DNA from: a virus
Virus record (IMG/VR): IMGVR_UViG_3300042511_000923
Coordinates: 1 to 31,303 of that record
Length of the DNA: 31,303 nucleotides
Strand: one strand, 5' to 3'
Each line of letters starts with the position of its first letter. Positions within the stretch are counted from its first letter, which is position 1. The notes below the pieces were generated by a model, which was given only the letters and a program-made list of their open reading frames with translations, had not been told where the DNA came from and ran no database searches. Both the position numbers and the translations under genes were made by a program. Below are positions 6,414 through 26,058 of the stretch, one piece after another.

Positions 6414-6545
6414 CATTAGATTAAATGTCTTTGGTTGGGTCCTTGGCTCGGCTGGGCTTTGCCTCGGAATAAACTTCTTCAATTTCCTCGAATCCAAGTA
6501 ATCGTTATATGCATCTTGGATACGGAGAGTTTCGAAATTGAAAAT
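6405..6545 (-). CDS. Candidate 46-residue ORF with ATT start, or downstream extension of the membrane protein
   Basis: Directly after the TAA of the upstream membrane-protein gene, in the same frame, an open stretch of 46 codons begins with ATT and ends at TAG. Its product (FNFETLRIQDAYNDYLDSRK, then a Lys- and Pro-rich tail) looks more protein-like than random AT-rich sequence. No ATG, GTG or TTG lies near its 5' end, so expression would need an ATT start coupled to the upstream stop, or stop-codon readthrough. It fills an otherwise empty gap of 185 nt. Weakly supported. Confidence 0.25.
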   Translation of the reverse strand: MFNFETLRIQDAYNDYLDSRKLKKFIPRQSPAEPRTQPKTFNLMYK

Positions 6546-9149: not shown

Positions 9150-9386
9150 TTATATTTTAGTTTGATTATCTACTAATTGAGCTTTAAAGATTGCTCTTAC
9201 CATATAGATGGCAGAGAATAAAAATGCAAAGAAACATGCAGATTCGATAGGATTAAGATATGCAAGATATAAAATTCCAATTGCAAAAATTACAGCTTTT
9301 GAAAATGCAAGTCCGCATATGATTGAAATGGATAATATAGCTATCCATGATAGAGAATTAATCCAATTCGATATTTTGATTTTCAT
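9150..9386 (-). CDS. Small membrane protein
   Basis: 78 residues with two or three hydrophobic segments at about 10-30, 31-46 and 49-68. No recognised family. It is the first gene after a terminator hairpin and a promoter-like element, so it probably opens a transcript that continues toward the SET gene. Confidence 0.55.
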   Translation of the reverse strand: MKIKISNWINSLSWIAILSISIICGLAFSKAVIFAIGILYLAYLNPIESACFFAFLFSAIYMVRAIFKAQLVDNQTKI

Positions 9387-9393
9387 AATTTGA

Positions 9394-9418
9394 AGTTTTA
9401 ATTATAGTGTAAATATAA
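9394..9418 (-). promoter_or_regulatory. Promoter-like element before the small membrane-protein gene
   Basis: The minus strand reads TTATATTTACACTATAATTA, close to TTATATTTGTACTATAAATA at 12182-12210. TATATTTA fits the TAnnTTTR box. GTTAATAAC lies about 50-60 nt upstream, with the terminator hairpin in between, the same order as at the 12.2-kb site. Confidence 0.5.
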
Positions 9419-9449
9419 CAAAAAAACTCGATACTAAAAAATATCGAGT
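9419..9449 (-). terminator. Rho-independent terminator after the glycosyltransferase-like gene
   Basis: On the minus strand ACTCGATA pairs with TATCGAGT across an 8-nt loop, followed by a run of seven T. It lies 10 nt after the stop of the glycosyltransferase-like gene and directly before the next promoter. Confidence 0.8.
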
Positions 9450-9458
9450 CGAAAGTTA

Positions 9459-10538
9459 TTAACAATTGTACTTAAAGAATTCTGAGAACTTTTCTTTATA
9501 GAATTCGATATCCTTAGATAATTTGACATAATCCGAACATTTGTAAATTTCCTTGATTGCTGATTCATAATCGATAGTTTCTATCAAAGATTTAATTCCA
9601 TCCATACTCACTACATATTTATCGAACAATTTCGATAATTCCGGATAGTGTTGAAGTCCTATCTTATATTGAGTTTCTTCATGAATTAAAGGTATCGTTT
9701 TCATTGCCAATGCCTCGTAAAAACGAACTGAACTAAAATGATTTTTATCGTATGATGGAACGATTAAAGTAAACTTAGACTTACATAAGAATTCGTTATA
9801 AATTCTATTGTTTACCATGTTGTCTCGCTTTTTAAATTTGTCTTTTACAAAAACGTTAAATCCTTTGATTGATTGTAGTTCAATAAGCGAATCTGATAAA
9901 TGAGCTCTATCTTTACTTAATACCGTACAACCAAAGGTAAAATCTTCGGTCTTTCTTTCAATCGGTAAGTCCTTCTTAAAAATAAATCCATATTCCACGT
10001 ATGGAAGATATTTTAAGTTAGTTTCTGGCGAATCATAAAAGTAAAAACGATTTTTTATTGCATCATATTCATGAGGATCCGATACTATATGCAAAGCCTC
10101 AATTCCTTTAATTTCGGTAATGTAATAGTTTGTTAGTATTCCTCTAGTCGAATGAAAGACAATATTAAATTTGTTTAAGTACTCATCGTCTTCTAAAGAA
10201 TTTTTGTAATGTAATTCTGATTTTGTATCTCCACCTAATCGATGGTCACCCATTATATTTAAGTAAAAAACTAAATATCTATCGATTGAATATTTTTCAA
10301 TAATAGAATCTATAGAAGCCCAATAGGCTTTCCATGATTTACCCTTTTCGGTTTTAACAATTGTAATATTTTTAACGTTTGCCACATTAGGAAAACTACG
10401 TAAAAATGTACTATCGCTATATCGATTAATAATGTAGTAGTGATTAACTTCGTCAAGCTCAATAAATTTAATATATGAGTTGAATTTGTTTGCCTCAAAT
10501 CGAGACAGTGCTTTATCAAAGTTTAGTAATATGTTCAT
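9459..10538 (-). CDS. Glycosyltransferase-like protein (GT-B / exostosin-like C-terminal region)
   Basis: 359 residues. The best motif lies at 246-286, IYNEFLCKSKFTLIVPSYDK followed by SSVRFYEALAMKTIPLI: this is the sugar-nucleotide-binding part of exostosin-like or GT-B glycosyltransferases, where a Ser/Arg-x-Tyr-Glu-Ala pattern is followed by a small-residue turn and Pro-Leu-Ile. The N-terminal 200 residues match no domain I know but fit an acceptor-binding Rossmann-like half. Phage glycosyltransferases modify DNA, virion proteins or host surface sugars; which applies here is open. Two features give context: an own terminator downstream, and the esterase/phosphatase fusion gene upstream with a 24-nt gap. 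Confidence 0.6.
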   Translation of the reverse strand: MNILLNFDKALSRFEANKFNSYIKFIELDEVNHYYIINRYSDSTFLRSFPNVANVKNITIVKTEKGKSWKAYWASIDSIIEKYSIDRYLVFYLNIMGDHRLGGDTKSELHYKNSLEDDEYLNKFNIVFHSTRGILTNYYITEIKGIEALHIVSDPHEYDAIKNRFYFYDSPETNLKYLPYVEYGFIFKKDLPIERKTEDFTFGCTVLSKDRAHLSDSLIELQSIKGFNVFVKDKFKKRDNMVNNRIYNEFLCKSKFTLIVPSYDKNHFSSVRFYEALAMKTIPLIHEETQYKIGLQHYPELSKLFDKYVVSMDGIKSLIETIDYESAIKEIYKCSDYVKLSKDIEFYKEKFSEFFKYNC

Positions 10539-10562: not shown

Positions 10563-12176
10563 CTAGGATTTAGCAAGAGTTTCTTTCTTTGCTAATGCAA
10601 TTCCTATTTTCTTTCCTTCTTCAACATCTGAAGGATAATGAACTCCTGATAGGATTCTTGAGTTACCTATTTTATCAGCCAATTCACTCAATGAATTAGC
10701 TAAATGAGGATATTTGTTTGCTAACATACAAGCCATATAATGAGCACCACATGAATGCCCAGAAGGAAACGAATATGTGTTTGATGTAGTTCCACTTAAA
10801 GGAACTATGTTATGAGACATATATGGTCTAAGTCTTTGCCAAGCAACTTTCATGTTATTCACTAATTCAATATTGCCGTCATGCTTCCATAAGTCTTTTA
10901 ATTCTTTCATTGAAGGTTTTTCTCCTCTGATGGTTAACCATTGATAGAAAAGTTCAGGTGGCGAATCATTTGCAGCAAGTGCAAATTTTTTATCTTCTTC
11001 GGTAGCTCTCTTCATTTCACTCTTAACTAATCCAATTTCATGATTATCTTCGATTGTAAGATTTCCAGCTGGTGGCATTTTACCTAAGAAGTTATGATGT
11101 AAGGTGTTTGAAATTTCTTCTGGCAAAAATGAATAATCAGCACCAACACCCGGTGCATCAGTAGCCCATTCTTCGTTTATGCTTTCAAATAGAGGAGTTT
11201 CTTCTAATGCAATAAGTAAACCTATTCCATCTTTAGCCATCTTCCAATGAAATCCCGGTTTTATGTTATCTTTTATCAATTCAACATAAACTCTACCTCT
11301 CTTATTTAATTTACCTTCTTCGGTTTCTTCTCCAGGAGAATCAGCACCTACAAAATAAACTGTAACTGAAGGATGGAGATTTAGATACTCTTCGATGATA
11401 GCTTGGATAGTAGAAAAAACTTTACTAACCTCAGTCATAGAAGATAATCCATTACCAGCAGATTTTAATTTATCAGATTCAAAGAAACATAAAGTAGATT
11501 TTAAAGCTAACGCATTAAACTTAACGATGTAATGGTCGCTTGAACCTGAAAATTGAACTCTGGAATTACCATGATTACTAGCTATAATAGTCCATGGATA
11601 TTTAAAATCAGTAAGCTTTCTTTCGTTTAAAGAATTTTTAGTATTTGCCATGTAATTCAATCTCATTCCTTTAGGAATGCCTTGATAAACTCCTTCGTTC
11701 TTTTTAAGGAATTTATTTTCACAATAATTTACCCATTTAGAGAATATGTCAATAGGAGTTCGATGGCCATTATTTTCGTAGTTTTGATAGAATGTACCTA
11801 TTCCGTGTTTTAGGAAATATATGTTACTTTCTTTAGGGACTATGTCATCGTCGTTTCTACCAAATACTATGGTATTGACTGCACGTTTAGTTCCCATTCT
11901 AACTATTGGGTCGAATGATCGACTATGGACTGCCGGATTAAAAAGTAATGTAGGTATTCCGGTTAATGTGCCTATGCAATAAGCAAACCAACCACCCATA
12001 GAAGAACCTATTAGGAGATCGATTTTATTTTTCTTAACTTCGGCTAAGGTTTTTTCGAAAAGTCCGTTGTCGTGATAGTCCATTGGTGGATCGTAAACAT
12101 AATCAAACTTTTCTAAGAATTCGTTTTTGTCAGTTTTAGGTGAGGACTCAAGTCCATGGAAGAATGCAACTCGCAT
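10563..12176 (-). CDS. Three-domain protein: YqiA-like esterase, unknown domain, PAP2 phosphatase
   Basis: 537 residues. Residues 1-155 look like a YqiA-type alpha/beta hydrolase: FFHGLESSP (5-13), the nucleophile elbow GSSMGGWFA (57-65, Ser59), an Asp near 111 and His138. Residues about 190-330 form a domain I cannot name (VYFVGADSPGEE, KRGRVYVELIKDNIK). Residues about 336-537 are a class A acid phosphatase/PAP2 domain with all three motifs: KVAWQRLRP (443-451), PSGH (471-474) and SRILSGVHYPSD (506-517). Candidate prohead-protease sites fall at the two domain junctions: SLNE ending at 185 and SINE ending at 335, so the protein could be cut into three pieces. It has no N-terminal tag of the YEEFLNE type. 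A promoter-like element precedes it, so it begins its own transcript. Confidence 0.8.
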   Translation of the reverse strand: MRVAFFHGLESSPKTDKNEFLEKFDYVYDPPMDYHDNGLFEKTLAEVKKNKIDLLIGSSMGGWFAYCIGTLTGIPTLLFNPAVHSRSFDPIVRMGTKRAVNTIVFGRNDDDIVPKESNIYFLKHGIGTFYQNYENNGHRTPIDIFSKWVNYCENKFLKKNEGVYQGIPKGMRLNYMANTKNSLNERKLTDFKYPWTIIASNHGNSRVQFSGSSDHYIVKFNALALKSTLCFFESDKLKSAGNGLSSMTEVSKVFSTIQAIIEEYLNLHPSVTVYFVGADSPGEETEEGKLNKRGRVYVELIKDNIKPGFHWKMAKDGIGLLIALEETPLFESINEEWATDAPGVGADYSFLPEEISNTLHHNFLGKMPPAGNLTIEDNHEIGLVKSEMKRATEEDKKFALAANDSPPELFYQWLTIRGEKPSMKELKDLWKHDGNIELVNNMKVAWQRLRPYMSHNIVPLSGTTSNTYSFPSGHSCGAHYMACMLANKYPHLANSLSELADKIGNSRILSGVHYPSDVEEGKKIGIALAKKETLAKS

Positions 12177-12252: not shown

Positions 12253-12846
12253 TTATGCTCTTGGTCGTCCTAACATAATTTTGTCGTGAGCTCCACCAGC
12301 AATATTTCTAGTGTACCAACCATCACCAGAAGCATCTGGCATAGTACCAATCCATTGAACTTGTTTACCTAAAACTTTAGTAACTACATCAATATCAGTT
12401 ACTACTGGCACATCATATTTGTTGATTAAGATTTCCGCGATTTTACCAGAAACTTCGATATAGAATCCCATCTTTTTAAGGTCGACTCCTCTAGCTTCAA
12501 TGTAAGCACGTTTAGCATCTTTGGTTCCGTCATGTCCTACTCCTGAGAATTTAACTCCAAATTTAGTTCTTTGACCAAACATTACCATATCAAAATCTCT
12601 GGTTCCGTGAATATCTTCACCTTCCCAATAATTCCAATCTGGATCTGCAAACACATCTTCAGGAGATTTTATTTTAATGTGACCTCCAATTTCGGCATAT
12701 GCCGTTTGTATCAAATCGAAAAATTCTCCAGCTAATTCTGGATATTTCTTATGATTGAATAGTAAAGCCTTTCCTCTTGGTGGTTTTAAATCACCAGAAG
12801 AAGTTATTTCGTTTACGTACTCTTCGTATTTTTTAAATGTTGTCAT
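12253..12846 (-). CDS. Tagged internal protein; paralogue of the next upstream gene
   Basis: 197 residues. Tag MTTFKKYEEYVNE (1-13) with candidate cleavage after VNE. The rest is not recognised, but it aligns with the protein of the next upstream gene: GFYIEVSGKIAEILINKYDV with VPVVTDIDVVTKVLGK here, against GWFIEASKRMEEIL and VPVVDDFEVIQNIVGK there. The core WNYWEGEDIHGTRDFDM and the final Arg-Pro-Arg-Ala are specific to this copy. It is the last gene of the array before a hairpin. Its ATG overlaps the upstream stop (ATGA), which confirms the start and hence the tag. Likely packaged in the head and injected (inference from tag). Confidence 0.75.
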   Translation of the reverse strand: MTTFKKYEEYVNEITSSGDLKPPRGKALLFNHKKYPELAGEFFDLIQTAYAEIGGHIKIKSPEDVFADPDWNYWEGEDIHGTRDFDMVMFGQRTKFGVKFSGVGHDGTKDAKRAYIEARGVDLKKMGFYIEVSGKIAEILINKYDVPVVTDIDVVTKVLGKQVQWIGTMPDASGDGWYTRNIAGGAHDKIMLGRPRA

Positions 12847-13400
12847 TTTAATTTACCGTATATTCGTTTTGTAATTCGTTTTCCTGCTTTTGAAAGAAAT
12901 CTAGAGTAATATCCGTCTTCTTCCATTTGTGGTTGTTTATGCTTACCTACAATATTTTGAATTACTTCAAAATCATCTACTACTGGAACTTTAGAATCCA
13001 CTAAGATTTCTTCCATTCTTTTCGATGCTTCGATAAACCAACCTTTAGTATTTACTAAGTCAATAACTTTCGTTATCAATTCTCGTTTAGCACCTTTCTT
13101 TTCGTTAGTACCTAATAGAGCAATCTTGTTTCCATAAGCAGTTTCCTTATAAATAATGAATGCATCTGGTTTGTGATCGGAATCTACGTCTTTTAGATAA
13201 GTAGCTTTATATTTCGTCTTTAATTCATGAGCATCATCAGCAGAAAAATCTAGACCTTCTTTAGAATATGTATCGGTGTACATTTTCCAAATTAAGTCTT
13301 CTGCCTCTTTATCTAATTTAGACATATCAATATTAACCCACTTACCAGTAGGAATCGACATTTCACTTACAAATTCGTTATATTTTTTAAATTGTGTCAT
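12843..13400 (-). CDS. Tagged internal protein; paralogue of the next downstream gene
   Basis: 185 residues. Tag MTQFKKYNEFVSE (1-13), candidate cleavage after VSE. The body is related to the neighbouring downstream protein over most of its length; shared features are a helix near residue 30-45, a beta region ending in ALLGTNEKKGAKRELI, and a C-terminal GWFIEASKRMEEIL helix followed by VPVVDDFEVIQ. The C-terminus is very basic (AGKRITKRIYGKLK), which would suit DNA contact within the capsid. ATGA overlaps at both ends tie it into the operon. Confidence 0.75.
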   Translation of the reverse strand: MTQFKKYNEFVSEMSIPTGKWVNIDMSKLDKEAEDLIWKMYTDTYSKEGLDFSADDAHELKTKYKATYLKDVDSDHKPDAFIIYKETAYGNKIALLGTNEKKGAKRELITKVIDLVNTKGWFIEASKRMEEILVDSKVPVVDDFEVIQNIVGKHKQPQMEEDGYYSRFLSKAGKRITKRIYGKLK

Positions 13401-13867
13401 TTTATTAGTTTTACCGATTTTTTAGGTTCAATTACAACTACATTAGTTGTACGTATATATTTGTTTCCTTTTACTGGATGACTTCCGGCATCCATAATAT
13501 TTTGAAAGACTATTCCATCAAAACCTTTATCTATAGCTGCTCTAACAAAATGGTCAGTCTTTATAGATTTAATTTCAGGATTTGGTTTGTATCTATCGAA
13601 ATCTTCGGGTTTCATTCCTAATTTTTTAGCTTCGGCTTTTGCAGCTATCTCAGGTAACCACCAACCTTCAGCTGAACTAAAATCTAAAGTAACAAATTTC
13701 TTAAGGATGATTTGATATGGTCCAGTAACCTTTCCGTAAGATTGTGCTATTAATAAACTATCAGTAAAATATATTGGTTTGTTAAAATCTACATCTCCAC
13801 CATGATACATCAAATCAAATTTTTCTGATTCGTTTAAGAACTCGTCATATTTTTTAAATGTCGTCAT
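13397..13867 (-). CDS. Tagged ADP-ribosyltransferase-like internal protein
   Basis: 156 residues: tag MTTFKKYDEFLNE (1-13), then a complete small domain with the pattern of phage and toxin ADP-ribosyltransferase folds: MYHGGDVDF (20-28, His22 in the NAD-binding position), PIYFTDSLLIAQSYG (31-45, the Tyr/Ser strand and following helix), GFDGIVFQNIMDAG (115-128) and a closing strand VVVIEPKKSVKLI (143-155). T4 also packages an ADP-ribosyltransferase (Alt) and injects it to modify host RNA polymerase, so a packaged enzyme of this fold has precedent. The catalytic Glu cannot be fixed by eye; Glu147 is one candidate. Overlaps with both neighbours (ATGA and TAATG) support the start. The target is unknown. 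Confidence 0.7.
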   Translation of the reverse strand: MTTFKKYDEFLNESEKFDLMYHGGDVDFNKPIYFTDSLLIAQSYGKVTGPYQIILKKFVTLDFSSAEGWWLPEIAAKAEAKKLGMKPEDFDRYKPNPEIKSIKTDHFVRAAIDKGFDGIVFQNIMDAGSHPVKGNKYIRTTNVVVIEPKKSVKLIK

Positions 13868-14259
13868 TAATCTCCAGTTCCTTTGTATATTATTTTAATT
13901 GCCTTAGCAGGAATATTTTCAAATGTAATTATACGTTTGTCTTTCAAATCAAAATTTGGATCTACGTACCATATATTCTTAAGATTAGTTGTATCTATTT
14001 GATAGATGTCATCATCATAAGTTGAATCCCACCAATCTTTCTTATTATCACTATTAACTGCAAATATAACTTTGCCATCAATATTGGTGTCAGATAACCA
14101 AGTCTCACTTTTACCTTTAGTAATCAATCCTTCTTTAGAAATAATATTTCTATAATGAGGATTTGATGTATGATATAAGTATCTGTTTGGTTTTACTTCA
14201 ATTAAGCGAGAATTAGCACTTTCATTTATCCATTTTTCGTATAGAGGCAAATTTCTCAT
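13867..14259 (-). CDS. Tagged protein with ART/KptA-like fold
   Basis: 130 residues: tag MRNLPLYEKWINE (1-13, cleavage after INE), then YLYHTSNPHYRNIISKEGL (27-45), a match to the first strand and helix of RNA 2'-phosphotransferase-like and other ADP-ribosyltransferase-fold proteins, where H-T-S positions NAD. KVIFAVNS (63-70) and ITFENIPAKAIKII (111-124) fit the later strands of that fold. It is not closely similar to the adjacent ART-like protein, so the two are probably independent recruits rather than recent duplicates. Activity on protein, RNA or DNA cannot be told apart. Confidence 0.6.
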   Translation of the reverse strand: MRNLPLYEKWINESANSRLIEVKPNRYLYHTSNPHYRNIISKEGLITKGKSETWLSDTNIDGKVIFAVNSDNKKDWWDSTYDDDIYQIDTTNLKNIWYVDPNFDLKDKRIITFENIPAKAIKIIYKGTGD

Positions 14260-14657
14260 ATCTTTGCTTTAAGTATTTTCATATTAATAGCCTTGTCTCC
14301 TTTTATGATTTGTGATGCTATTCGATGATGTCCATCAAAAACGATTACTGTTCCATTTTTAAATTGTACACCAGTAGGCATTTCGGTCTTTTTACTTTTT
14401 GAATATAAATTAACCGTAGTTGAATTCAAATAATCTTGATTTGGAACTATTTTGTTTATGTCTATAGATAAAGTTTTAGCTTTATCGAATGCCTTAATTT
14501 TTAAATTTGCGTTATCCTCTTCATCGTATCCTAATTCAGATCTCCAAAAATCCTTCATATCTAAATATGAATCCGTAGTCATCTTTTGTTTGAATACGTT
14601 TAACAATTTCGTATTATCCTCATTAAGCCAGTCTTCATATATAGGCAAATTTCTCAT
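14256..14657 (-). CDS. Tagged protein with ParB/sulfiredoxin-like domain
   Basis: 133 residues: tag MRNLPIYEDWLNE (1-13), a helical region (15-65), then a ParB-type core, IVPNQDYLN (70-78) and the hallmark VIVFDGHHRIASQIIKG (104-120). In ParB-fold proteins the D-G-x-H-R motif binds nucleotides or forms part of a nuclease or kinase site. In a capsid-targeted protein this might act on host nucleic acid. The stop overlaps the next ATG (ATGA) and the start overlaps the nucleotidyltransferase stop (TAATG). Confidence 0.65.
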   Translation of the reverse strand: MRNLPIYEDWLNEDNTKLLNVFKQKMTTDSYLDMKDFWRSELGYDEEDNANLKIKAFDKAKTLSIDINKIVPNQDYLNSTTVNLYSKSKKTEMPTGVQFKNGTVIVFDGHHRIASQIIKGDKAINMKILKAKI

Positions 14658-15739
14658 TACAGAAGATTCTTTTTAGCTCTTTTTATATATTCGGTAACTA
14701 AACCTCGGATTTTGTTCATTGCCGCTATTGCAGCCGGAGTTTCAGCCTTATTGAATTTAGGAGAGTTATAAGCTTCCATCATTCCTTTCTCATATTGTTT
14801 TACTACTGCCTGCATAAATTCTTTTGCCGACTTATATTTTAAAACAGTACCAAATTCTCCTATTTGTTCAAGAGTATCAGCCACCGCTAATATTCCATCA
14901 CACAAATCATCAAATGTAGGAGAATCAGGATTAACACCTTTCCATTGTTGTAATGATTCAGAAGGCACAAAAGGCTTTCCAGGATTAGATTGGTCCCAAA
15001 AGAATCTAGCAATATCCATCATAAAAGTAGACGAACTTAAAGTAATTAATCGATCTTCAACATTTGAACGTTTAGAATAAGGCACCATTAAATCACCTTG
15101 AAATCTTGCTCTAATTCCTCTTGGTTGTATTGAAATTTCTAAAGCCTCACCGAATGACGAGTATAACTTACCAATTACAAATCCTTTAACGTTTTTCTCT
15201 GGAGTAAAACGGAAAACTGCCCATGATGAATATTCTTTATGAGTTACCACTAAGTCCACTTGCACATAACCTATTTCACCAGTTCTTAAAGGAACTGTTA
15301 CTAATAATTTTAGAGATGCATCAGTAGAAATAGATTTTGTTTCTTCTACGTCTATACCTTCAGGTGTTTCAGCTTCTAGCCACATTAGCAGCTCTTGATT
15401 ATACAATTTAACAGTAGCAATCTCATCAGCTCGTGGATCTTTACTTGTAAGTTTAAGTACCGGATATGCGATCATGTAATCTACATCTCCGTATAATTTT
15501 TCAGGTTGATTTTTTAAATCATCTTCCCACCAAGTACCAGATCCTATAGGCTTCAAAAAGTCTAAAGATGGTAATTCCAATTCTCGTAAATGTCCATTGA
15601 AATCTTCGGAAATCCTAGCTACGACCTTCGTTACTTTTTGGATAACGTCTGGAGTTAAAGGAGTTTCCTGAGTTTTAGTAGTTGACCAACCGCCTTCGTT
15701 GATAGTCAACCATTCGTTATATAGTTGTAAGTTTCTCAT
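14657..15739 (-). CDS. Tagged nucleotidyltransferase (DNA polymerase beta superfamily)
   Basis: 360 residues, the largest single-domain member of the array. The tag is MRNLQLYNEWLTINE with candidate cleavage after INE (13-15). The catalytic pattern is visible: IGSGTWWEDDL (65-75, the G-S helix turn), YGDVDYMIAY (83-92, Asp85 and Asp87 as metal ligands) and YVQVDLVV (158-165, Asp162 as third carboxylate). This is the layout of pol-beta-type nucleotidyltransferases, including tRNA-modifying and antitoxin/toxin (MNT) enzymes. The C-terminal 150 residues are helical (EQIGEFGTVLKYKSAKEFMQ), as in those enzymes. It could adenylylate or nucleotidylate host proteins or RNAs after injection (inference). 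Confidence 0.75.
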   Translation of the reverse strand: MRNLQLYNEWLTINEGGWSTTKTQETPLTPDVIQKVTKVVARISEDFNGHLRELELPSLDFLKPIGSGTWWEDDLKNQPEKLYGDVDYMIAYPVLKLTSKDPRADEIATVKLYNQELLMWLEAETPEGIDVEETKSISTDASLKLLVTVPLRTGEIGYVQVDLVVTHKEYSSWAVFRFTPEKNVKGFVIGKLYSSFGEALEISIQPRGIRARFQGDLMVPYSKRSNVEDRLITLSSSTFMMDIARFFWDQSNPGKPFVPSESLQQWKGVNPDSPTFDDLCDGILAVADTLEQIGEFGTVLKYKSAKEFMQAVVKQYEKGMMEAYNSPKFNKAETPAAIAAMNKIRGLVTEYIKRAKKNLL

Positions 15740-15746
15740 AATTTTG

Positions 15747-16112
15747 TTATTCTATTAACTTTTCTACATAAGTGCAGGTTTCTCCTGCATCAAATCCCTT
15801 TTCGATAAGTAGTGATAGTGAGGCCGGTTTACACCAAGCATATACAAGCCAACCTGAATATTTACTTTGTACGTATTCCCATCGAGTATTCCAAAGTTTT
15901 CTAAAGATTCCTTTTCTTCTATGCTCTTCTTGTACCCAGGCATCTAAGAATTTAATCTTCTGATCCTTTTCTCTTTCCATATAGATATGGCCTACAATAT
16001 CACCATTTATCATTGCAATCCAAGTTTCTAATTGCTGGGCATTGCTCTTTAGGTGAATTATTTTTATATCTTCTATAAAAGAATTCGATACTTCATTCAA
16101 AACATTACTCAT
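15747..16112 (-). CDS. GNAT-family N-acetyltransferase-like protein
   Basis: 121 residues. Motif A of GNAT enzymes is present as DAWVQEEHRRKGIFRKLW (57-74), with R-R-K-G-I binding the acetyl-CoA pyrophosphate, and motif B as SLSLLIEKGFDAG (98-110). The N-terminus MSNVLNEVSNS contains L-N-E at 5-7 but lacks the aromatic tag core, so it may be a shortened tag or none. Lies inside the tagged operon, 7 nt before the nucleotidyltransferase gene. Substrate unknown. Confidence 0.72.
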   Translation of the reverse strand: MSNVLNEVSNSFIEDIKIIHLKSNAQQLETWIAMINGDIVGHIYMEREKDQKIKFLDAWVQEEHRRKGIFRKLWNTRWEYVQSKYSGWLVYAWCKPASLSLLIEKGFDAGETCTYVEKLIE

Positions 16113-16128
16113 TATATTTATAAGTTTC

Positions 16129-16425
16129 TCATATTGCAGGTAAAGACAAATCTAATGTTTCTGGTATGTGTTTATATTTGTTGTAAACGTTATTAGACAC
16201 TATGTAGGATTTGATAAATCTTTCCATTTCTGCAATACTACCAAAGGTATGACCTCCGAAATCGATATCAATTCCTTTATAAAATGGAGTATAATTTGCA
16301 ACAGTACGACCAGCTTGTTTTTGCTCTCTTTGTTTTTTCCAAATAATTCCGTCATTACCTTTTACTTCATCTGGCCATTTAGTAGATTCGTTAAGAAACT
16401 CGTCGTATTTTTTAAATTGTGTCAT
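16129..16425 (-). CDS. Tagged internal protein, unknown
   Basis: 98 residues: tag MTQFKKYDEFLNE (1-13), then an 85-residue domain. GIIWKKQREQKQAGRTVANY and FYKGIDIDFGGHTFGSIAEM suggest a small alpha/beta domain, with IAEMERFIKSYI as the main helix. No family recognised. Stop and start positions fit between neighbours with short gaps. Confidence 0.7.
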   Translation of the reverse strand: MTQFKKYDEFLNESTKWPDEVKGNDGIIWKKQREQKQAGRTVANYTPFYKGIDIDFGGHTFGSIAEMERFIKSYIVSNNVYNKYKHIPETLDLSLPAI

Positions 16426-16426
16426 A

Positions 16427-17170
16427 TTATTTAGTATTTCTTTTTAACCACTGATTAAATGATTCGGTTATTTTAGTTAGGGTTGCTTTATACGTAGCCT
16501 TAAAATCTTTTGGTTCTTGAATATAACCTTCGGCAGTTTCGTCATGTAAATCAGAAGTCCATTGCCAATGAAAACATAATTCATTAGGCACATCAAATCC
16601 ATAAAATTTAAGGACTTGCTTTTGTTTTTCTAATTCCGTACCGCCATTCCAATTGTGACCAGTTAAAACAATACCAGCTAATTTACCTTCTAAAATATTA
16701 TTTTCTTCTAGGGTAGTCCATCGATTTTCTAACCAATTTAAGCGTTCGATTAGTTTTTGATAGACTGCGTTAACTGAACCCCATCGAATCGAACCTAAAA
16801 ATATAACGGCATCAGCTTCTAATAAAGGTTTGCTCACTTTCCAAAGTTCATCGTCTTTGTGATTAATAGAAGCCCAACAACGATGACATCCACTCGGATT
16901 TTTAGTTGCATCTTTTAGTATGGAATCTTTTACTCCACATGAATTTCCTTTTGAAGTAGAAACATTACCTTCGCATTGATAGATGTGCAATTTAGTAACG
17001 TCGACAATTTCGCAAGTAGATGAACCTAATTCATCTTGAATCATTTGTGCCAATTGAGAGGACTTAGGAATATCATCACTACCTTCCCATCGAGTCGATG
17101 TGGTAAGTAGGAGTACCTTCTTTCCTCTGAGATGAGTGGTCAATCTTTGTAAATCGTGGTTGCTATTCAT
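16427..17170 (-). CDS. NAD(P)H-dependent FMN reductase / flavodoxin-fold protein
   Basis: 247 residues. The flavodoxin fold is visible: first strand and phosphate loop KKVLLLTTSTRWEGS (17-31), then VIFLGSIRWGSVNAVYQKLI (122-141), the FMN-binding and dimer region typical of FMN_red proteins, followed by RLNWLENR. An insert with Cys66, Cys78, Cys95 and Cys98 (GCHRCWAS) recalls the metal or disulfide region of iron-sulfur flavoproteins, though the spacing is not the canonical one. It carries no YEEFLNE tag and so is probably made in the infected cell rather than packaged; it may serve redox balance or detoxification. It lies between tagged genes with 1-nt gaps. Confidence 0.72.
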   Translation of the reverse strand: MNSNHDLQRLTTHLRGKKVLLLTTSTRWEGSDDIPKSSQLAQMIQDELGSSTCEIVDVTKLHIYQCEGNVSTSKGNSCGVKDSILKDATKNPSGCHRCWASINHKDDELWKVSKPLLEADAVIFLGSIRWGSVNAVYQKLIERLNWLENRWTTLEENNILEGKLAGIVLTGHNWNGGTELEKQKQVLKFYGFDVPNELCFHWQWTSDLHDETAEGYIQEPKDFKATYKATLTKITESFNQWLKRNTK

Positions 17171-17171
17171 A

Positions 17172-17822
17172 TTATTTAGATGTCCAAACTACTCCACCAC
17201 CACCATCTTCGATATGGAATTTAGCTTTTGGATATTTTCTTTTCATGTCTTCGTATTTAGCCGGAATCAAGTCTCGGATTTTAATGTCATTTGATTGACC
17301 AACTACCTTTCCATATTCTAAAGCAACAATAGACCAAGGTCCGTTATCACCAGTTTTTACGCCTTTCATCATCACTGCCCAAACTCCTTCGTTAACAACA
17401 GATTCGTTACGCATATCTGCTAGATATGCATCGGTTAAATCGGTTATTAGGTCTAGCAATTCGTTTTTCTTATTAATATTTAACCCGGCCATATCGATAA
17501 TATCATCGATTTCCTTTGCAACCTCTTTTACCTCTTTATCAGAGTTTCTATAATAATCGGTTAGAGACATTGCCTCATTAATAGAAGATTCATTATAAGG
17601 AATTACTCCTAATTTTTGATCGGCTTTAGCGATCATATCCTCTACCTTTTTACAAGCAGATTGAATGCCTTTTAAAGCAACAATCCATTTAGGAGCTGAT
17701 ATGTCCTTCTTTAATAGCTCATCGATTTTATCTTGAAGGTTAGTTATGTCACTCCCAATTTCATCAAAAATAAAATATTGACCTTCGTTTAAGAATTCTT
17801 CGTATGTTTGTAAGTTTTTCAT
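17172..17822 (-). CDS. Tagged internal protein with three candidate cleavage sites
   Basis: 216 residues: tag MKNLQTYEEFLNE (LNE at 11-13), plus SINEA (INE at 81-83) and VVNEG (VNE at 143-145). Cleavage at all three would release pieces 14-83 (helical, KIDELLKKD), 84-145 (helical, acidic) and 146-216, a compact beta-rich piece beginning GVWAVMMKGVKTGDNGPWSI and ending in GGGGVVWTSK. The last piece looks like a complete small domain. Function unknown. The tag DNA differs from that of the gene at 18220-18759 at only 3 of 39 bases. Confidence 0.72.
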   Translation of the reverse strand: MKNLQTYEEFLNEGQYFIFDEIGSDITNLQDKIDELLKKDISAPKWIVALKGIQSACKKVEDMIAKADQKLGVIPYNESSINEAMSLTDYYRNSDKEVKEVAKEIDDIIDMAGLNINKKNELLDLITDLTDAYLADMRNESVVNEGVWAVMMKGVKTGDNGPWSIVALEYGKVVGQSNDIKIRDLIPAKYEDMKRKYPKAKFHIEDGGGGVVWTSK

Positions 17823-18220
17823 TATTTGTAATTTTTATTTAAGTACCAATTAATATCCTCTTTAGCATAACCTAAAAGCTCGCCAATTCTTTTGCTCTCC
17901 TGTTTAGTAGCCTCATATGATAAATATCCGCCATATTTATTAGCAATCTTTGCTAATTCTTTAGCTTTTTTCTCGGCACCTTTATTAAAATAAATATAAG
18001 CGTCGAATGGATTTCCTGGTAATTTGATTGTTCCTAAGTTGTGAGTCTTAACCAAATCCCAAAATTCATCTATACTTAAATCAACTGTGGTTTTTAAAGT
18101 AATAAATCCTAAATCTCTCTTTCCGTCTATAACAGTTTGTACCGCACTTTTATCTCGGTGGGCTTCTTCTGCCTTAATAGTTTCGTTTACGAATTCGTCG
18201 TATGTAGGAATGTGTTTCAT
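17822..18220 (-). CDS. Tagged internal protein, unknown
   Basis: 132 residues: tag MKHIPTYDEFVNE (1-13, cleavage after VNE), then a soluble alpha/beta domain rich in Lys. DLSIDEFWDLVKTHNLG and EKKAKELAKIANKYGGYL are probable helices. Not recognised. TAATG overlaps at both ends fix the start. Confidence 0.7.
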   Translation of the reverse strand: MKHIPTYDEFVNETIKAEEAHRDKSAVQTVIDGKRDLGFITLKTTVDLSIDEFWDLVKTHNLGTIKLPGNPFDAYIYFNKGAEKKAKELAKIANKYGGYLSYEATKQESKRIGELLGYAKEDINWYLNKNYK

Positions 18221-18759
18221 TATATTTTTCCGGCTTTTACTCTATCTCTAGAAACGCTGTTGATGTATTTTAATTCATCTGCATTTAGTTTAGGAGCAAT
18301 TAGTTTTTTCCATTGACCTTCTTGTTTAGCTCTTGGTAATTGCAAAAATTCAATAACGTCTTGGTCATCTTTTAACTTGCTAATTATCGATTGGACTGCT
18401 TTATCTCGCCAATGTTCTTTCCACCACATTTTCAAATCATCAACTGGGTGAAAATCTACTCTATTAGCTAACAGTGCAATTTGTCCTCCAATTGCAGCAG
18501 CCTGTAACATAAGGATTGCAGTCATTGCATCTTCATTTAAGAATTCTTCGGATTCTTTTAAATATCCTTCGTCACTCCAACCAGCTATAAAAGAGATATC
18601 TCCTTTTGCTCGGCCTTCTAAAAATTTCACCTTTGTATTTTGATTTTTACCTAAATCAATAACTTCAAATTTACCTAATTTAGGGTGAGTGTAAATTTTG
18701 CCAACGATAAAATTAGATTTCTCGTTTAAGAATTCCTCGTATGTTTGTAAGTTTCTCAT
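18220..18759 (-). CDS. Tagged internal protein with a second internal tag
   Basis: 179 residues. Tag MRNLQTYEEFLNE (LNE 11-13) and a second copy of its core, ESEEFLNEDAM (LNE 74-76). Between them lies a beta-rich piece (FIVGKIYTHPKLGKFEVIDL, about 17-60). After the second site comes a hydrophobic segment (AILMLQAAAIGGQIALLA, about 81-98) and a basic helical C-terminus. Two processing sites would separate a soluble piece from a membrane-active or amphipathic piece. Such a hydrophobic piece could help DNA cross the host membrane (speculative). Confidence 0.72.
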   Translation of the reverse strand: MRNLQTYEEFLNEKSNFIVGKIYTHPKLGKFEVIDLGKNQNTKVKFLEGRAKGDISFIAGWSDEGYLKESEEFLNEDAMTAILMLQAAAIGGQIALLANRVDFHPVDDLKMWWKEHWRDKAVQSIISKLKDDQDVIEFLQLPRAKQEGQWKKLIAPKLNADELKYINSVSRDRVKAGKI

Positions 18760-18893
18760 TATCTTCCTTGTCCTTTGTATTTTTTAGGCTTTTCTTCTTT
18801 AGGCCCAAAGTGTTTTTTGGCTTTGCCAGTACTCTTCGTTTTAGTTATCTTAACCGAAGTAGTTGTAGTTGATTTGCTTTTAGTAGCGGCCAT
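18759..18893 (-). CDS. 44-residue Lys/Thr-rich basic peptide
   Basis: Starts at the ATG at 18893 and ends with a TAA that shares a base with the next ATG (TAATG). The product begins MAATKSKSTTTTSVKITKTK and ends KPKKYKGQGR; about one third is Lys or Arg and there are almost no hydrophobic residues. It looks like a histone-tail-type polycation, suited to neutralising packaged DNA, much as T4 internal proteins are basic. It lacks the tag. It lies directly behind a structured 140-nt leader. Confidence 0.6.
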   Translation of the reverse strand: MAATKSKSTTTTSVKITKTKSTGKAKKHFGPKEEKPKKYKGQGR

Positions 18894-18939
18894 GGTGTTA
18901 CATGATATTTTTATTTTTGCGTTTTATTCATTTAGAGTT

Positions 18940-19019
18940 CACCAGATAAACGATTTACTGGTGTTATAATACCTACTAACCAGAGAACAATTTTTAAACG
19001 TGGATTACACGATTTCTCT
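18940..19019 (-). promoter_or_regulatory. Structured leader inside the internal-protein operon
   Basis: The 141-nt gap between two tagged-array genes is the only long one in the operon. It can fold into a 6-bp CACCAG/CTGGTG hairpin extended by TAAA/TTTA with one bulge (18940-18963), and a second element where AGAGAA (18982-18987) pairs with TTCTCT (19014-19019) around an inner CGTG/CACG hairpin. It may be an mRNA processing site, attenuator or small RNA. No T-run follows in the minus direction. Confidence 0.4.
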
Positions 19020-19034
19020 TACTAATCAGTGGTT

Positions 19035-19451
19035 TTATTGTATGTCTTCTTTTCTGTATTCTGGTGCAATTGTTGCAGCCGGTAATTGAGTAGCTAAATC
19101 AGTCGTACCTTCATTAACCGTAGCCTTATAACCAAATTTTGATCGTAAAGCTTTAATTGCGGCAATAGCCTTTGCTTCATCTTCGAAGGAGTCGTCCATA
19201 AAAATAGAAATTTGTTCAGGTGCTAAATCTTCAGCACCGTTTTTCATTTTTAAAGGCGATATAGTAACATTAACAATAGCGGCAAAGTTATTTCTCATTG
19301 TTCCCGCAACTCCACCCTCAACAACTACACATTGATTTTCATCGAAGTGTAGTGCGTCTTTCCAACATGATTTCCATGTCTTATTAGCCGGAGTAGCTGA
19401 TTGAAATTTAGCACCATCAGCTAAAAATTCGTTTAGAGATTCATGTAACAT
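19035..19451 (-). CDS. Tagged internal protein (variant tag), unknown
   Basis: 138 residues. The N-terminus MLHESLNEFLADGAKF is a shifted form of the MLHESLEEFLNE tag, with L-N-E at 6-8 and L-A-D at 10-12. TVNEG near residue 111-115 is a further possible site. The body is not recognised; it has Cys29 and Cys41, and ISIFMDDSFEDEAKAIAAIK suggests an RRM-like or ferredoxin-like alpha/beta unit. Confidence 0.65.
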   Translation of the reverse strand: MLHESLNEFLADGAKFQSATPANKTWKSCWKDALHFDENQCVVVEGGVAGTMRNNFAAIVNVTISPLKMKNGAEDLAPEQISIFMDDSFEDEAKAIAAIKALRSKFGYKATVNEGTTDLATQLPAATIAPEYRKEDIQ

Positions 19452-19454
19452 AAT

Positions 19455-19790
19455 CTATTTAGGTGACCATTCTTTTTTGTCAAAATCTTCGATGTTTAAC
19501 ATGGCTTGTATCGACTTTTCAAAATGAATATTTACTCGACCCCAAAAAAATCCAGTAGTAGGAGCAAATTCCGTATTCCAAAATTTACGATCTCTCAATC
19601 TATCCAAACAATCTTTTGTAACTCCTTTTGGATCGTCATAGACGATATTAAGATAGCCATTTACATCCTCAGTTCTAAACTTAATTTTACTAGAAAATCC
19701 ATGTAAAGCTTGTAAGATGTCAATTAAATCATTTGCAGTTCCTCTACCTTCATTTAAGAAAGTTTCTAGTGATTCGTGTAATGAGCTCAT
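19455..19790 (-). CDS. Tagged internal protein, unknown
   Basis: 111 residues: tag MSSLHESLETFLNEGRG (LNE at 12-14), then an alpha/beta domain with NDLIDILQALHGFSSKIKFR, YLNIVYDDP and WGRVNIHFEKSIQAML. Not recognised. The start shares a base with the previous stop region (TAATG). Confidence 0.68.
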   Translation of the reverse strand: MSSLHESLETFLNEGRGTANDLIDILQALHGFSSKIKFRTEDVNGYLNIVYDDPKGVTKDCLDRLRDRKFWNTEFAPTTGFFWGRVNIHFEKSIQAMLNIEDFDKKEWSPK

Positions 19791-20227
19791 TATTTGATGT
19801 ATTTTTTTCTAATAATTTCCTCAGCCTTTTCAATCTCTTTCGGAGACCAACCATAGAGCTTACCTATCTCGGTGGCAACCTCTAATGGGTCGTCTGAAGT
19901 CTTAAATTGATTGATGTGCATTTTAATGGTTGCATCATTTACCGGTTGTTTGCTCTCATTTAAGAAGGCTTCAAAGCTTTCCATAAGATTACTTGATTCG
20001 CTCACTTCTGCTTCATATACAGTTCCTATTACATCACTAGCATTACTAAATTTCTTAATGTGACTACTCACATCCTTTAGCTTTTTGATAATAGCATCTA
20101 ATTCTTTAGGGTCAACATCATTACCGGAAGTAACTCGATCGGTAAATACATTTAACTTTATGCGAGCTACGAATAGTTCGGTTTTGACTACATCTTTCGG
20201 TAATCGATAGAAAGTTCCTTCGTTCAT
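19790..20227 (-). CDS. Helical protein with internal capsid-type tag (possible fusion)
   Basis: The ATG at 20227 (MNEGTFYRLP) is chosen over an upstream in-frame ATG because the longer form would run into the metalloprotease gene and add an unlike N-terminus. 145 residues: a helical part (KELDAIIKKLKDVSSHIKKF), then the internal tag MESFEAFLNES (82-92) followed by a second helical unit (EVATEIGKLYGWSPKEIEKA). The internal Met and tag look exactly like a gene start, so either two genes have fused or M82 is also used as a start. Cleavage at LNE (89-91) would release the C-terminal 54 residues. Confidence 0.65.
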   Translation of the reverse strand: MNEGTFYRLPKDVVKTELFVARIKLNVFTDRVTSGNDVDPKELDAIIKKLKDVSSHIKKFSNASDVIGTVYEAEVSESSNLMESFEAFLNESKQPVNDATIKMHINQFKTSDDPLEVATEIGKLYGWSPKEIEKAEEIIRKKYIK

Positions 20228-20231
20228 AATA

Positions 20232-20612
20232 TTATTTCTTGCTCCAAAGTAAATCTGAAAAATCCGAGTACATGTACTTGTCAATTAGAGAATTCTCTAG
20301 TTTTTTAAATTTTTGTTGTTGGTCAGCTTTACCTAAATAAGGATTTCCTTCGGTTTGAAGTTTTATCTGATGAGTTAATTCATGTAAGATAGCTTGTTCC
20401 GGATCAACCATTCTCGACAAATCAAATGAGATATAAAGAGCTTGATTTGTCTTAGCATTGTAAGAAGTACATGCACCACCATGAGCAACCTTTTCAAATT
20501 TCAAAGGTAATTCCTTAACTCTCTCAGCTTTACATACCGCAGAATAGTAAGCCTTAACATTAGCTTGACTAACGGCTTCATTAAGAAACTCTTCTAATGA
20601 TTCGTGTAACAT
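20232..20612 (-). CDS. Tagged zinc metalloprotease-like internal protein
   Basis: 126 residues: tag MLHESLEEFLNE (1-12), then a single domain with the zinc-binding motif H-E-L-T-H (77-81) in AILHELTHQIKLQTEG. Glu78 would be the catalytic base, His77 and His81 zinc ligands; Glu88, seven residues on, is a possible third ligand. The upstream strand ALYISFDLSRM fits the edge strand of minimal zincins. A capsid-packaged protease would reach the host cytoplasm with the DNA, making host defence or transcription proteins possible targets (inference). Two tagged genes flank it, with gaps of 2 and 4 nt. Confidence 0.75.
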   Translation of the reverse strand: MLHESLEEFLNEAVSQANVKAYYSAVCKAERVKELPLKFEKVAHGGACTSYNAKTNQALYISFDLSRMVDPEQAILHELTHQIKLQTEGNPYLGKADQQQKFKKLENSLIDKYMYSDFSDLLWSKK

Positions 20613-20614
20613 AA

Positions 20615-20818
20615 TTATTTCTTTTGTTCTAAGCCATCACTATAAGCCCAACGAATAGCTGAAAATACATCAGCAGCTAAAGGAGAATTAAATGTCGAAC
20701 CTTTCATTGACAACCCGAATTTCTTAAATTGTTTAAATGCCTGAATAGCATATTCTCTCGCTTCATCATCACCGGAAGATTCAATTAAATACTCGTCGTA
20801 TGTTGGTAAGTTTTTCAT
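20615..20818 (-). CDS. Tagged small internal protein, first gene of the array
   Basis: 67 residues: tag MKNLPTYDEYLIESSG (LIE at 11-13), then about 50 residues with REYAIQAFKQFKKFGL and ADVFSAIRWAYSDGL as helices. After processing only a tiny helical protein would remain, similar in size to small T4 internal proteins. Preceded by a 54-nt gap in which TCGAT/ATCGA can pair. Confidence 0.65.
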   Translation of the reverse strand: MKNLPTYDEYLIESSGDDEAREYAIQAFKQFKKFGLSMKGSTFNSPLAADVFSAIRWAYSDGLEQKK

Positions 20819-24173: not shown

Positions 24174-24437
24174 TTAGTAAAAGTAGCCATTGTGAACAAT
24201 TTGTATAGCTTGTTCGTATTGTTGACCGACTTTTTCTTGTCCTTCTGAACCTAAGTAAGAAGGAGTAATTTCTAAGATGCATGTTCCTTTAACAGTATCG
24301 ATACTCACTAACTTTGACCTTAAGGTAGCAGAATGATTATCTGGACCGATTTTTCCTATTACGGATTGAAGGTCGTAAGCCATTCTGTTAATAGTTTGTT
24401 GTTGGTACTCAGCGAATTTTGAATCGGACATAAACAT
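24174..24437 (-). CDS. Hypothetical protein
   Basis: 87 residues; a second in-frame ATG two codons in (MSDSK) could be the true start. Helical N-terminus (KFAEYQQQTINRMAYDLQ) and beta region (GTCILEITPSYLG). Unrecognised. Directly downstream of promoter cassette copy 2, so probably strongly expressed. Confidence 0.6.
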   Translation of the reverse strand: MFMSDSKFAEYQQQTINRMAYDLQSVIGKIGPDNHSATLRSKLVSIDTVKGTCILEITPSYLGSEGQEKVGQQYEQAIQIVHNGYFY

Positions 24438-24450
24438 AATATGTGTTTTT

Positions 24451-24524
24451 AATTATAAGTAAATCTAATCATTTTAGGCGAAACTAGGAAATGATTTGTG
24501 CATTATTTTCAAAAAGTTATTAAC
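24451..24524 (-). promoter_or_regulatory. Phage promoter cassette, copy 2
   Basis: Minus strand: CGCCTAAAATGATTAGATTT followed by ACTTATAATTAAAAAC. TAGATTTA fits the TAnnTTTR box. About 70 nt upstream of TATAATT lies GTTAATAACTTTTTGAAAAT, the same spacing as in copy 4. The gene starts about 14 nt downstream. Confidence 0.7.
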
Positions 24525-24525
24525 A

Positions 24526-24587
24526 ATTGAGAGGTGTAGCATATCGATTTAATGCTCTTAATATTTACTCGGTGAGCACCTCTCAAT
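24526..24587 (-). repeat. 11-bp inverted repeat, possible terminator or structured RNA
   Basis: ATTGAGAGGTG (24526-24536) and CACCTCTCAAT (24577-24587) form a perfect 11-bp stem enclosing 40 nt, in which GCAT and ATGC can pair. It stands between the stop of one gene and the upstream element of promoter cassette copy 2. Confidence 0.65.
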
Positions 24588-25618: not shown

Positions 25619-25969
25619 TTAGTTAATGAATGATCCGTTTTCGTCGATTAGGTTTAGGTTATCTAGAGTCTCATAACCAAGAGGAGTAATGTGCATGGTT
25701 CCATAAGCATCGGGAGACCAATAAGGATTACGGGTTTTGTTTCCGTCCTTGTCGATGTTAAATTTTTTCTCACCTTCTTGGATATTGACAAGACCTTTAG
25801 TAGATAGTGAAGCGAAAACTCCACCTCTTTTACTTTTAGGTATTGAACAGGCATCGTACACTGAGAAATCCCATAAGATAGATTCTCGTCCATTTTCATA
25901 GAAATCCGAGTAAGTAATAGATTTCAGAGCAAGTAGCTCGAGGTCGGTAAGGGTGATTGGAGTTGTCAT
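25619..25969 (-). CDS. Small winged-helix-like protein
   Basis: 116 residues. LTDLELLALKSITYSDF is a likely first helix; KRGGVFASLSTKGLVNIQEG (48-67) matches the recognition helix and wing of small winged-helix proteins, where a Ser-Leu-x-x-K-G-L-V turn is common; ITPLGYETL near the end is the final helix. It may be a phage transcription regulator. Promoter cassette copy 4 precedes it. Confidence 0.55.
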   Translation of the reverse strand: MTTPITLTDLELLALKSITYSDFYENGRESILWDFSVYDACSIPKSKRGGVFASLSTKGLVNIQEGEKKFNIDKDGNKTRNPYWSPDAYGTMHITPLGYETLDNLNLIDENGSFIN

Positions 25970-25981
25970 AACGTATTGTTT

Positions 25982-26058
25982 TAATTTGATAAGTAAAACT
26001 AATCATTTTAGGCGACAAATGGAAATGTTTCGGCAACTATTTTTAGAAAGTTATTAAC
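25982..26058 (-). promoter_or_regulatory. Phage promoter cassette, copy 4
   Basis: Minus strand: GTCGCCTAAAATGATTAGTT followed by TTACTTATCAAATT. TAGTTTTA fits the TAnnTTTR box. GTTAATAACTTTCTAAAAAT lies about 70 nt upstream, as in copy 2. Confidence 0.7.

Follow-up and report, generated by a model that had tools for sequence, protein, structure and literature searches.

We have found that a stretch of viral DNA of 31,303 nucleotides, the whole of which we call the window (IMG/VR virus record IMGVR_UViG_3300042511_000923, positions 1 to 31,303), contains at positions 12253-20818 a co-directional run of genes whose products mostly begin with a common short sequence, the tag. The tag resembles the capsid-targeting sequence (CTS) of the internal proteins of bacteriophage T4, and we consider it probable (roughly 84%) that it works like the T4 CTS, as an address to the capsid and a site for cleavage, and that the tagged proteins are loaded into the head for injection. 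The proposal, made in a preliminary description of this DNA, that we are dealing with the T4 internal protein system on a larger scale is well supported by a gp21-type protease, the T4 spacing of the tag, retrieval of the T4 proteins IPII and IPIII, tagged neighbors of head genes and a tag on the protein annotated as scaffolding in phage PAU. The window is identical (100%) to positions 96352-127654 of IMG/VR contig 3300044568_003163 (294,034 bases, hereafter G001), and it is a fragment of this T4-like jumbo phage contig. At about 238-257 kb G001 has a T4-like head cluster encoding the major capsid protein (phrog_138), an S77 protease (phrog_207), the portal (phrog_213) and a DNA end protector (phrog_429), and tagged genes adjoin and interleave those for the portal, the protease and the major capsid protein. 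The closest portal and protease relatives among annotated phage records are the huge uncultured phages LR756500-LR756504 and LR745206, followed by Prevotella Lak phages, Sphingomonas phage PAU, Tenacibaculum phage PTm1 and others such as Chryseobacterium phage MA9V-1; these relatives suggest a host in the Bacteroidota.

We counted a gene as tagged if its N-terminus scored at least 8 bits against a matrix built from 38 G001 tags and, because these training peptides had been picked by pattern, we quote unsupervised and held-out tests as well. Genes were called with a simple purpose-written caller, some of whose starts are wrong (in L186 and 251259, for example, the tag sits at an internal ATG). 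In G001 the matrix picks out 54 of 459 genes; shuffled N-termini gave 1.06 on average and never more than 3 (50 shuffles). A matrix built only from 27 tags of contig G003 again finds 54 (mean 1.8, maximum 5; 30 shuffles). An unsupervised motif search of G001 gave a log-likelihood of 515.8 against 138.1 +/- 5.1 for six shuffles; such N-terminal motifs also stood far above shuffles in PAU, G007, G008 and LR756500, and in G003, G004 and G005, each compared with a single shuffle. T4, PTm1 and MA9V-1 lay 4-6 standard deviations over their shuffles through motifs other than the tag, cyanophage S-SSM5 did not exceed its best shuffle and phiKZ barely did so. With the G001 matrix we count 32/327 tagged genes in G005, 33/221 in G003, 19/117 in G004, 24/115 in G006 (G003 and G006 are non-independent, having many identical tagged genes) and 28/707 in LR756500, and low numbers in PTm1 (1/327), MA9V-1 (3/281), PAU (7/300), T4 (3/278) and S-SSM5 (0/219); the G003 matrix finds 33 in G005, 3 in T4, 1/219 in S-SSM5 and 1/377 in phiKZ, which is chance level. 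Within the window, 12 of the 18 gene calls of 12253-20818 (17 of the 18 on the minus strand) score at least 8; the other 44 gene calls all stay below 6.

Ten residues of T4 IPIII are enough for packaging, with positions 4 and 7 chiefly serving targeting and positions 8 and 10 processing, and gp21 cleaves after L/I-x-E (PMC9026906). The core of the tag is aromatic-x-x-aromatic-aliphatic-x-Glu, with the spacing of the functional T4 CTS, and the unsupervised motif agrees. The likeness to the T4 CTS claimed in the preliminary description is borne out in spacing and residue classes, and also by retrieval: the G001-trained matrix places IPII and IPIII joint first among 278 T4 gene calls, and the G003-trained matrix places them joint second, behind gp61.1. 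We note that gp61.1 (18966-19130 in T4), an uncharacterized protein of 54 amino acids (aa), begins MKTFKEFIKED and scores as tagged; it is possibly an overlooked packaged protein.

The S77 family (PF03420) was not found in the 31-kb window, which is a fragment. A gp21-type protease, the absence of which had been set beforehand as a refuting test, is present in the 294-kb contig as a 643-aa frame (E 4.1e-14), with an S77 match at 246708-247052 that is above the cut-off. Its GExxHP and SSR regions, which we take to be catalytic, align with those of T4 gp21. S77 was found in five of the six first records, to which a tag pattern or a cargo body had led (the exception, G002, is a fragment of the same phage), in three of four further cargo-selected records (two above the cut-off), and in 14 of 22 other contigs holding the body encoded at 12253-12846; 11 of the 13 such contigs of at least 60 kb have it, one through a short paralog only. 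A further set gave seven of seven, but it consists of T4 and of records selected for the homology of their head genes, and so it is no evidence for co-occurrence. The G001 protease (245208-247121; L031:5208-7121) runs on for 471 aa past VNE at residues 164-166; the PAU and T4 proteases are short and separate, and the MA9V-1 version has 1347 aa. A second, short S77 paralog of 132 aa occurs in LR756500 (154840-155238) and also in G027-G030, and in G027 it is the sole S77 match found.

The C-terminal border of the protease domain (a slash marks junctions and tag ends) reads VNE/S in G001, G003, G005 and G006, VNE/N in G004 and VNE/A in LR756500, and thereby resembles the end of the tag, [LIV]NE followed by S or A. 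In more distant proteases the border reads ISE/S (PTm1), INE/S (MA9V-1), LME/S (PAU), IME/G (S-SSM5) and ITE/S (T4, across a gap). A ten-row capsid protein alignment without T4 likewise brought [LI]xE into one column, with LYE/N in G001, G003-G006 and LR756500, INE/S in PTm1, LNE/S in MA9V-1, LME/N in PAU and LSE/T in S-SSM5. We rejected this column as support, however: once T4, G007 and G009 were added, T4 proved to be cut elsewhere and MA9V-1 shifted. Because the column is unstable, we rely for the capsid junction only on PAU, in which the [LI]xE site would leave 521 residues, within one of the published N-terminus; the mature PAU capsid protein has 520 of 585 residues by N-terminal sequencing (Hua et al., PMC5646251). 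In the 30 residues that follow the tag in G001, [LIVM]NE is enriched: it occurs 10 times per 1620 residues, compared with 20 times per 10980 in proteins that lack the tag (one-sided p 0.003). A pool of four contigs gives p 8e-5, and the signal is clear only in G001 and in this pool. This enrichment fits a protease with a preference for [LIV]NE, and a partial dicing of some cargo would fit it too.

The cultured phage PAU offers a view of annotated head proteins, its labels being those of the record. The whole record names five internal capsid proteins (gp70, gp142, gp154, gp199 and gp270), of which four start with the PAU version of the tag, compared with 19 of 300 PAU gene calls (hypergeometric p 6e-5, an optimistic value, since the PAU and G007 tag patterns were written after the motif lists had been inspected). 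A search for the same tag on scaffold proteins had been suggested, and PAU gp152, annotated as scaffolding, bears it. These findings bear on a reading in which the N-terminus common to these proteins serves as a general leader, acting in translation, stability or localization (for example to a membrane or replication compartment) and having no link to the capsid. The tag is indeed short and N-terminal, as such a leader would be, yet matrices trained on it retrieve IPII and IPIII, its end motif recurs at the protease border and four of five annotated PAU internal capsid proteins carry the local version; the codons of the conserved tag residues differ synonymously, which argues against a leader acting at the nucleotide level. 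We therefore regard a general leader as very improbable.

Several observations weigh against the view that the tag addresses cargo for injection. Eight of the 22 contigs with the 12253 body lack S77, two of them longer than 100 kb (the records may be fragments), and T4, PTm1 and MA9V-1 possess S77 yet have few tags. T4 IPI and Alt were not recognized among the 12 best T4 genes. The T4 capsid protein, with a propeptide of 65 residues (PMC9026906), is cut after residue 65, outside the [LI]xE column, and the G001 candidate there is LYE/N, not NE/S. In PAU the local tag is missing from gp70 and from two "internal capsid vertex" proteins. For the looser motif [LIVM]xE there is no enrichment behind the tag (29 per 1620 versus 212 per 10980 residues), and the bodies of tagged G001 proteins are themselves rich in [LIVM]NE (24 per 6711 versus 78 per 59031 residues, p 8e-5), as they are in G003, though not in G004 or G005, so that part of the tagged set may be processed into fragments, as core proteins are. 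This last point leads to another reading, that the tag is a docking and cleavage signal of the prohead core and that most tagged proteins are core or scaffold proteins, like T4 gp67 and gp68, which would be diced and expelled before DNA packaging and not injected. The [LIVM]NE excess in the G001 and G003 bodies would be expected of such proteins, as would the tagged genes beside and between those for capsid, protease and portal, the tagged PAU gene annotated as scaffolding and the lack of a known enzymatic family for most bodies; moreover, tagged and untagged G001 genes are similarly conserved in G005 (20/54 and 154/405), so that tagged genes do not appear to evolve unusually fast. Set against this, several bodies look host-acting or metabolic (a GNAT fold, an adenylyltransferase-like and a RimK-like ATP-grasp protein), the operon of the window lies about 120 kb from the head genes, and 34 of the 54 tagged genes lack a G005 homolog, whereas capsid, protease and portal are present in every G001-G006 contig fetched. 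On balance we consider it unlikely that most of the tagged proteins are expelled core components, and we favor packaged cargo.

The genes of the operon, which is one among several tagged clusters in the 294-kb contig, are as follows, with scores from the tag-core matrix.

12253..12846, minus strand: tagged cargo, predicted GNAT fold, 197 aa; tag MTTFKKYEEYVNE/I, score 20.0.
12843..13400, minus strand: tagged cargo, paralog of 12253 and GNAT-like by homology, 185 aa; tag MTQFKKYNEFVSE/M, score 16.9.
13397..13867, minus strand: tagged cargo, weakly ADP-ribosyltransferase (ART)-like, 156 aa; tag MTTFKKYDEFLNE/S, score 22.1.
13867..14259, minus strand: tagged cargo, weakly RNA 2'-phosphotransferase/KptA-like, 130 aa; tag MRNLPLYEKWINE/S, score 16.3.
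14256..14657, minus strand: tagged cargo, 133 aa, phrog_17560 (function unknown, E 3.8e-4); tag MRNLPIYEDWLNE/D, score 20.0.
14657..15739, minus strand: cargo with variant tag MRNLQLYNEWLTINE/GG (N-terminus MRNLQLYNEWLTINEGG), 360 aa, score about 6; its best homologs in G003 and G004 score as tagged; no match in family-profile searches.
15747..16112, minus strand: GNAT acetyltransferase (PF00583, 26.2 bits, above the cut-off of 20.7), 121 aa, no full tag (MSNVLNEVSNS), score -4.8.
16129..16425, minus strand: tagged cargo, 98 aa; tag MTQFKKYDEFLNE/S, score 22.1.
16427..17170, minus strand: NADPH-dependent FMN reductase-like (PF03358, E 3.8e-7, above cut-off), untagged, score -12.2.
17172..17822, minus strand: tagged cargo, 216 aa, with a likewise tagged body homolog in G005; tag MKNLQTYEEFLNE/G, score 22.8.
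17822..18220, minus strand: tagged cargo, 132 aa; tag MKHIPTYDEFVNE/T, score 22.0.
18220..18759, minus strand: tagged cargo, 179 aa; tag MRNLQTYEEFLNE/K, score 22.8; a second, internal tag-like site, ESEEFLNE/DA, scores 16.3.
18759: short basic open reading frame, 44 aa, no full tag.
19035..19451, minus strand: cargo, 138 aa, with variant tag MLHESLNEFLAD, which ends in D and was recognized by eye only (score 0.9).
19455..19790, minus strand: tagged cargo, 111 aa; tag MSSLHESLETFLNE/G, score 10.2.
19790..20284, minus strand: internal tag-like site LMESFEAFLNE/SK (SNLMESFEAFLNESK), internal score 16.5; the real start is probably the ATG that gives 145 aa (19790-20227).
20232..20612, minus strand: tagged cargo, 126 aa, with a HELTH motif that we take to be a zinc-peptidase signature; no match in family-profile searches; tag MLHESLEEFLNE/A, score 16.3.
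20615..20818, minus strand: tagged small cargo, 67 aa; tag MKNLPTYDEYLIE/S, score 14.5.

The preliminary description had seen 13 N-terminal tags and one internal tag on unrelated bodies here. The pattern holds, and the count rises to 14 and one, since 12 tags by score, two variants (14657 and 19035) and the internal site in 19790 make 15. As a tagged run, all on the minus strand, the operon stands, although it is not purely tagged, 15747, 16427 and 18759 being without a full tag; the bodies are mostly unrelated, except that 12253 and 12843 are paralogs (31% over 108 aa). Elsewhere in the window a PAS/GAF histidine kinase (3610-5535, minus strand) begins MKSYSEILTE, which is T4-tag-like and yet scores only 3.1; it is possibly a packaged sensor kinase, and the adjoining gene (3166-3597, minus strand) is receiver-like by eye.

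We find that the tag differs between phage lineages as a set of dialects. In G007 the tags read MIKLKDLLKE and MKKSELRxLIREE, in PAU MKTLxxLYE, in LR756500 MKYIxEYEEF, and in G008 they are MKHIKLFEQFINE-like; the motif of G009 is little above its shuffle, and the tag reading there concerns one gene only. Cargo bodies recur from one dialect to another. The ART-like body (13397) is 82% identical in G007, where it stands behind an internal copy of the G007 tag, and the KptA-like body (13867), with homologs 67-78% identical, has four different N-termini in four records, two of which (L158 and L160) were called tags by eye only. G001 174159 and G007 13426 share a body (76% identity) and have unlike tags, and the 12843 body is 56% identical to a domain of a 911-aa G007 fusion. 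That fusion (G007 88375) joins an N-terminus that is nucleotidyltransferase-like by eye to the 12843-type body, which follows FMTE/AS, and G007 10392 (322 aa, in L155) is a tag-domain-tag-ART fusion. Among G001 genes with a homolog in G007, that homolog bears the G007 tag for 8 of 13 tagged genes (6 distinct G007 genes) and for 1 of 32 untagged ones (p 4.7e-5, optimistic for the reason given for PAU). G005 homologs are tagged for 16 of 20 tagged G001 genes against 2 of 154 untagged ones. The 12253 body scores as tagged at 28 of 29 loci and is tagged at an internal ATG at the remaining one, the 29 including the phage itself and its fragment and several that are nearly identical. Neither of the two tagged G001 genes with a homolog in LR756500 is tagged there, and PAU, at none of one, is uninformative as a target. 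We read these patterns as suggesting that cargo genes move between phages, each phage supplying its own address; in the more distant pairs, tag and cargo may instead have diverged together long ago. Bodies shared behind different N-termini are left unexplained by the proposal that the tags reflect common descent, the tagged genes being one expanded family with bodies diverged beyond recognition. Two pairs of bodies are recognizably paralogous, as such a family would predict, but these are the only pairs among the 54 bodies in G001 that are similar at E<1e-3, and we give a single family almost no credence.

Among the cargo, the 12253 protein was modeled with confidence. An AlphaFold2 model has a predicted local distance difference test score (pLDDT) of 84.9; residues 1-18 (the tag and a few more) fall below 50, the VIA matches span model residues 23-197, and the tag lies outside the predicted fold. 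The 50 VIA matches listed are almost all GNAT acetyltransferases by title (Z 8.2-9.6, root-mean-square deviation 3.2-4.1, 131-149 residues aligned), the best Foldseek match has an E of 4.3e-4 (template-modeling scores modest, 0.38-0.48), a GVGHDG-type loop is kept in most rows of the family alignment, and profile searches gave no sequence family match. The model supports a GNAT fold, and as many as three GNATs lie in the operon: 12253, 12843 through its homology to 12253, and the untagged 15747 through its Pfam match. A candidate GNAT homolog in PAU (146167), chosen by eye, aligned poorly and was removed. The ART-like assignment of 13397 is a weak sequence match (Pfam ART-PolyVal, E 0.0011, 20.2 bits, below the cut-off of 31.2), with no meaningful sequence match in the PDB; an AlphaFold2 model from two sequences (pLDDT 41.7) was unusable. 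For 13867 we find phrog_5470 (E 2.5e-4) and, far below its cut-off of 239, the NCBIfam RNA 2'-phosphotransferase (E 0.027, 14.3 bits). Outside the window, a Pfam scan of 30 of the 42 tagged G001 proteins brought only two above a family cut-off, an adenylyl/cytidylyltransferase-like protein (PF01467 and TIGR00125), the G005 homolog of which is tagged too, and a RimK-like ATP-grasp protein; a gene annotated as cytidyltransferase is also tagged in S-SSM5 (MKKFSAFLTEA). Most tagged bodies belong to no known family.

T4 Ip1-3 inhibit type IV restriction enzymes, and Alt is an injected ADP-ribosyltransferase (PMC12373910, PMC9503650); our effector reading is modeled on this literature, and the comparison with Alt is by analogy. 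The "injected effector set" of the preliminary description is an inference, one that would fit part of the cargo (the GNAT fold, the weakly ART-like and KptA-like proteins, and the adenylyltransferase-like and RimK-like proteins). We envisage that, late in assembly (the timing is assumed), the [FY]xx[FWY] half of the tag, with its aromatic residues, would dock cargo on the prohead core or scaffold, that the S77 protease would then cut after [LIV]-N-E and leave the mature cargo free inside the head, and that the cargo would stay with the DNA and be injected at the next infection. There it might act as a set of early effectors, comprising GNATs, ART-like, KptA-like and nucleotide adenylyltransferase-like proteins and many unknowns. 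Each lineage would have its own dialect, with shared cargo genes standing behind the local one. We lean, with a good deal of reserve, towards the more general idea that in jumbo T4-like phages the core and protease read a private lineage dialect, that dozens of effectors may be injected per phage, and that effector genes circulate and work only behind the local dialect.

If such coded loading is true, the sequence alone would tell which proteins an uncultured phage injects. Injected proteins are mostly unknown because virion proteomics of cultured phages is needed to find them; a readable tag would yield lists of candidates for uncultured giant phages, and such lists would point to proteins of early anti-defense and host takeover (GNATs, ART-like and nucleotide adenylyltransferase-like proteins). 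The dialects might also provide natural, possibly orthogonal packaging signals beside that of T4. In a search of the open-access literature we recognized no paper describing a tag set of such scale, or dialects with exchangeable cargo.

We also note that when four bodies of the window were compared by tblastn with 50,697 phage records, those of 14657 and 17172 had no match, that of 13397 had one partial, weak match and that of 12253 matched three huge-phage records. A UPF0227-PAP2 fusion (window 10563-12176) adjoins the GNAT gene, and in the huge phage LR745206 a UPF0227-like gene (L180 1171-1596) also follows a GNAT homolog, the homology being judged by eye. Families of dispersed repeats, about 50-115 bp long, some 76-94% identical among the matches listed and apparently intergenic, occur at window positions 9384-9467, 24434-24533, 25961-26067 and 6433-6511 and at many other G001 sites.

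Lastly, the system can be compared with those already known. With the T4 proteins IPI-IPIII and Alt, their CTS and gp21 it shares the short N-terminal aromatic-x-x-aromatic-[LIV]-x-E on unrelated bodies, the S77 protease and a T4-type capsid and portal. It differs in scale, with at least 54 tagged genes in G001 against three internal proteins and Alt in T4, and "at least 10" internal proteins reported for related phages (PMC12373910, PMC9026906), and also in the 471-aa region that follows VNE in the G001 protease, in the lineage dialects and in some enzyme-like cargo. The giant phages phiKZ and SPN3US likewise have large internal cargo and a prohead protease that cuts after E (PMC5694885, PMC9026906); their propeptides are far longer than the T4 tag, several in SPN3US exceeding 100 residues (PMC5694885), and in phiKZ we found the tag on 1 of 377 genes and no S77 match. 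Polyvalent and MuF-fused head-packaged effectors are alike in their predicted head-delivered ART, GNAT and peptidase domains (PMC5512222, PMC9503650, PMC7824862), but these are large fusions, whereas here we propose a short tag on separate small proteins; G007 has fusions with internal tag-like or cut-like sites. Sphingomonas phage PAU resembles G001 in having tagged proteins in the head cluster beside the S77 protease, and differs in its dialect, MKTLxxLYE, carried by 19 of 300 genes. The system is thus of the T4 kind, enlarged, and what is new in it are the lineage dialects and the same cargo bodies standing behind different dialects.

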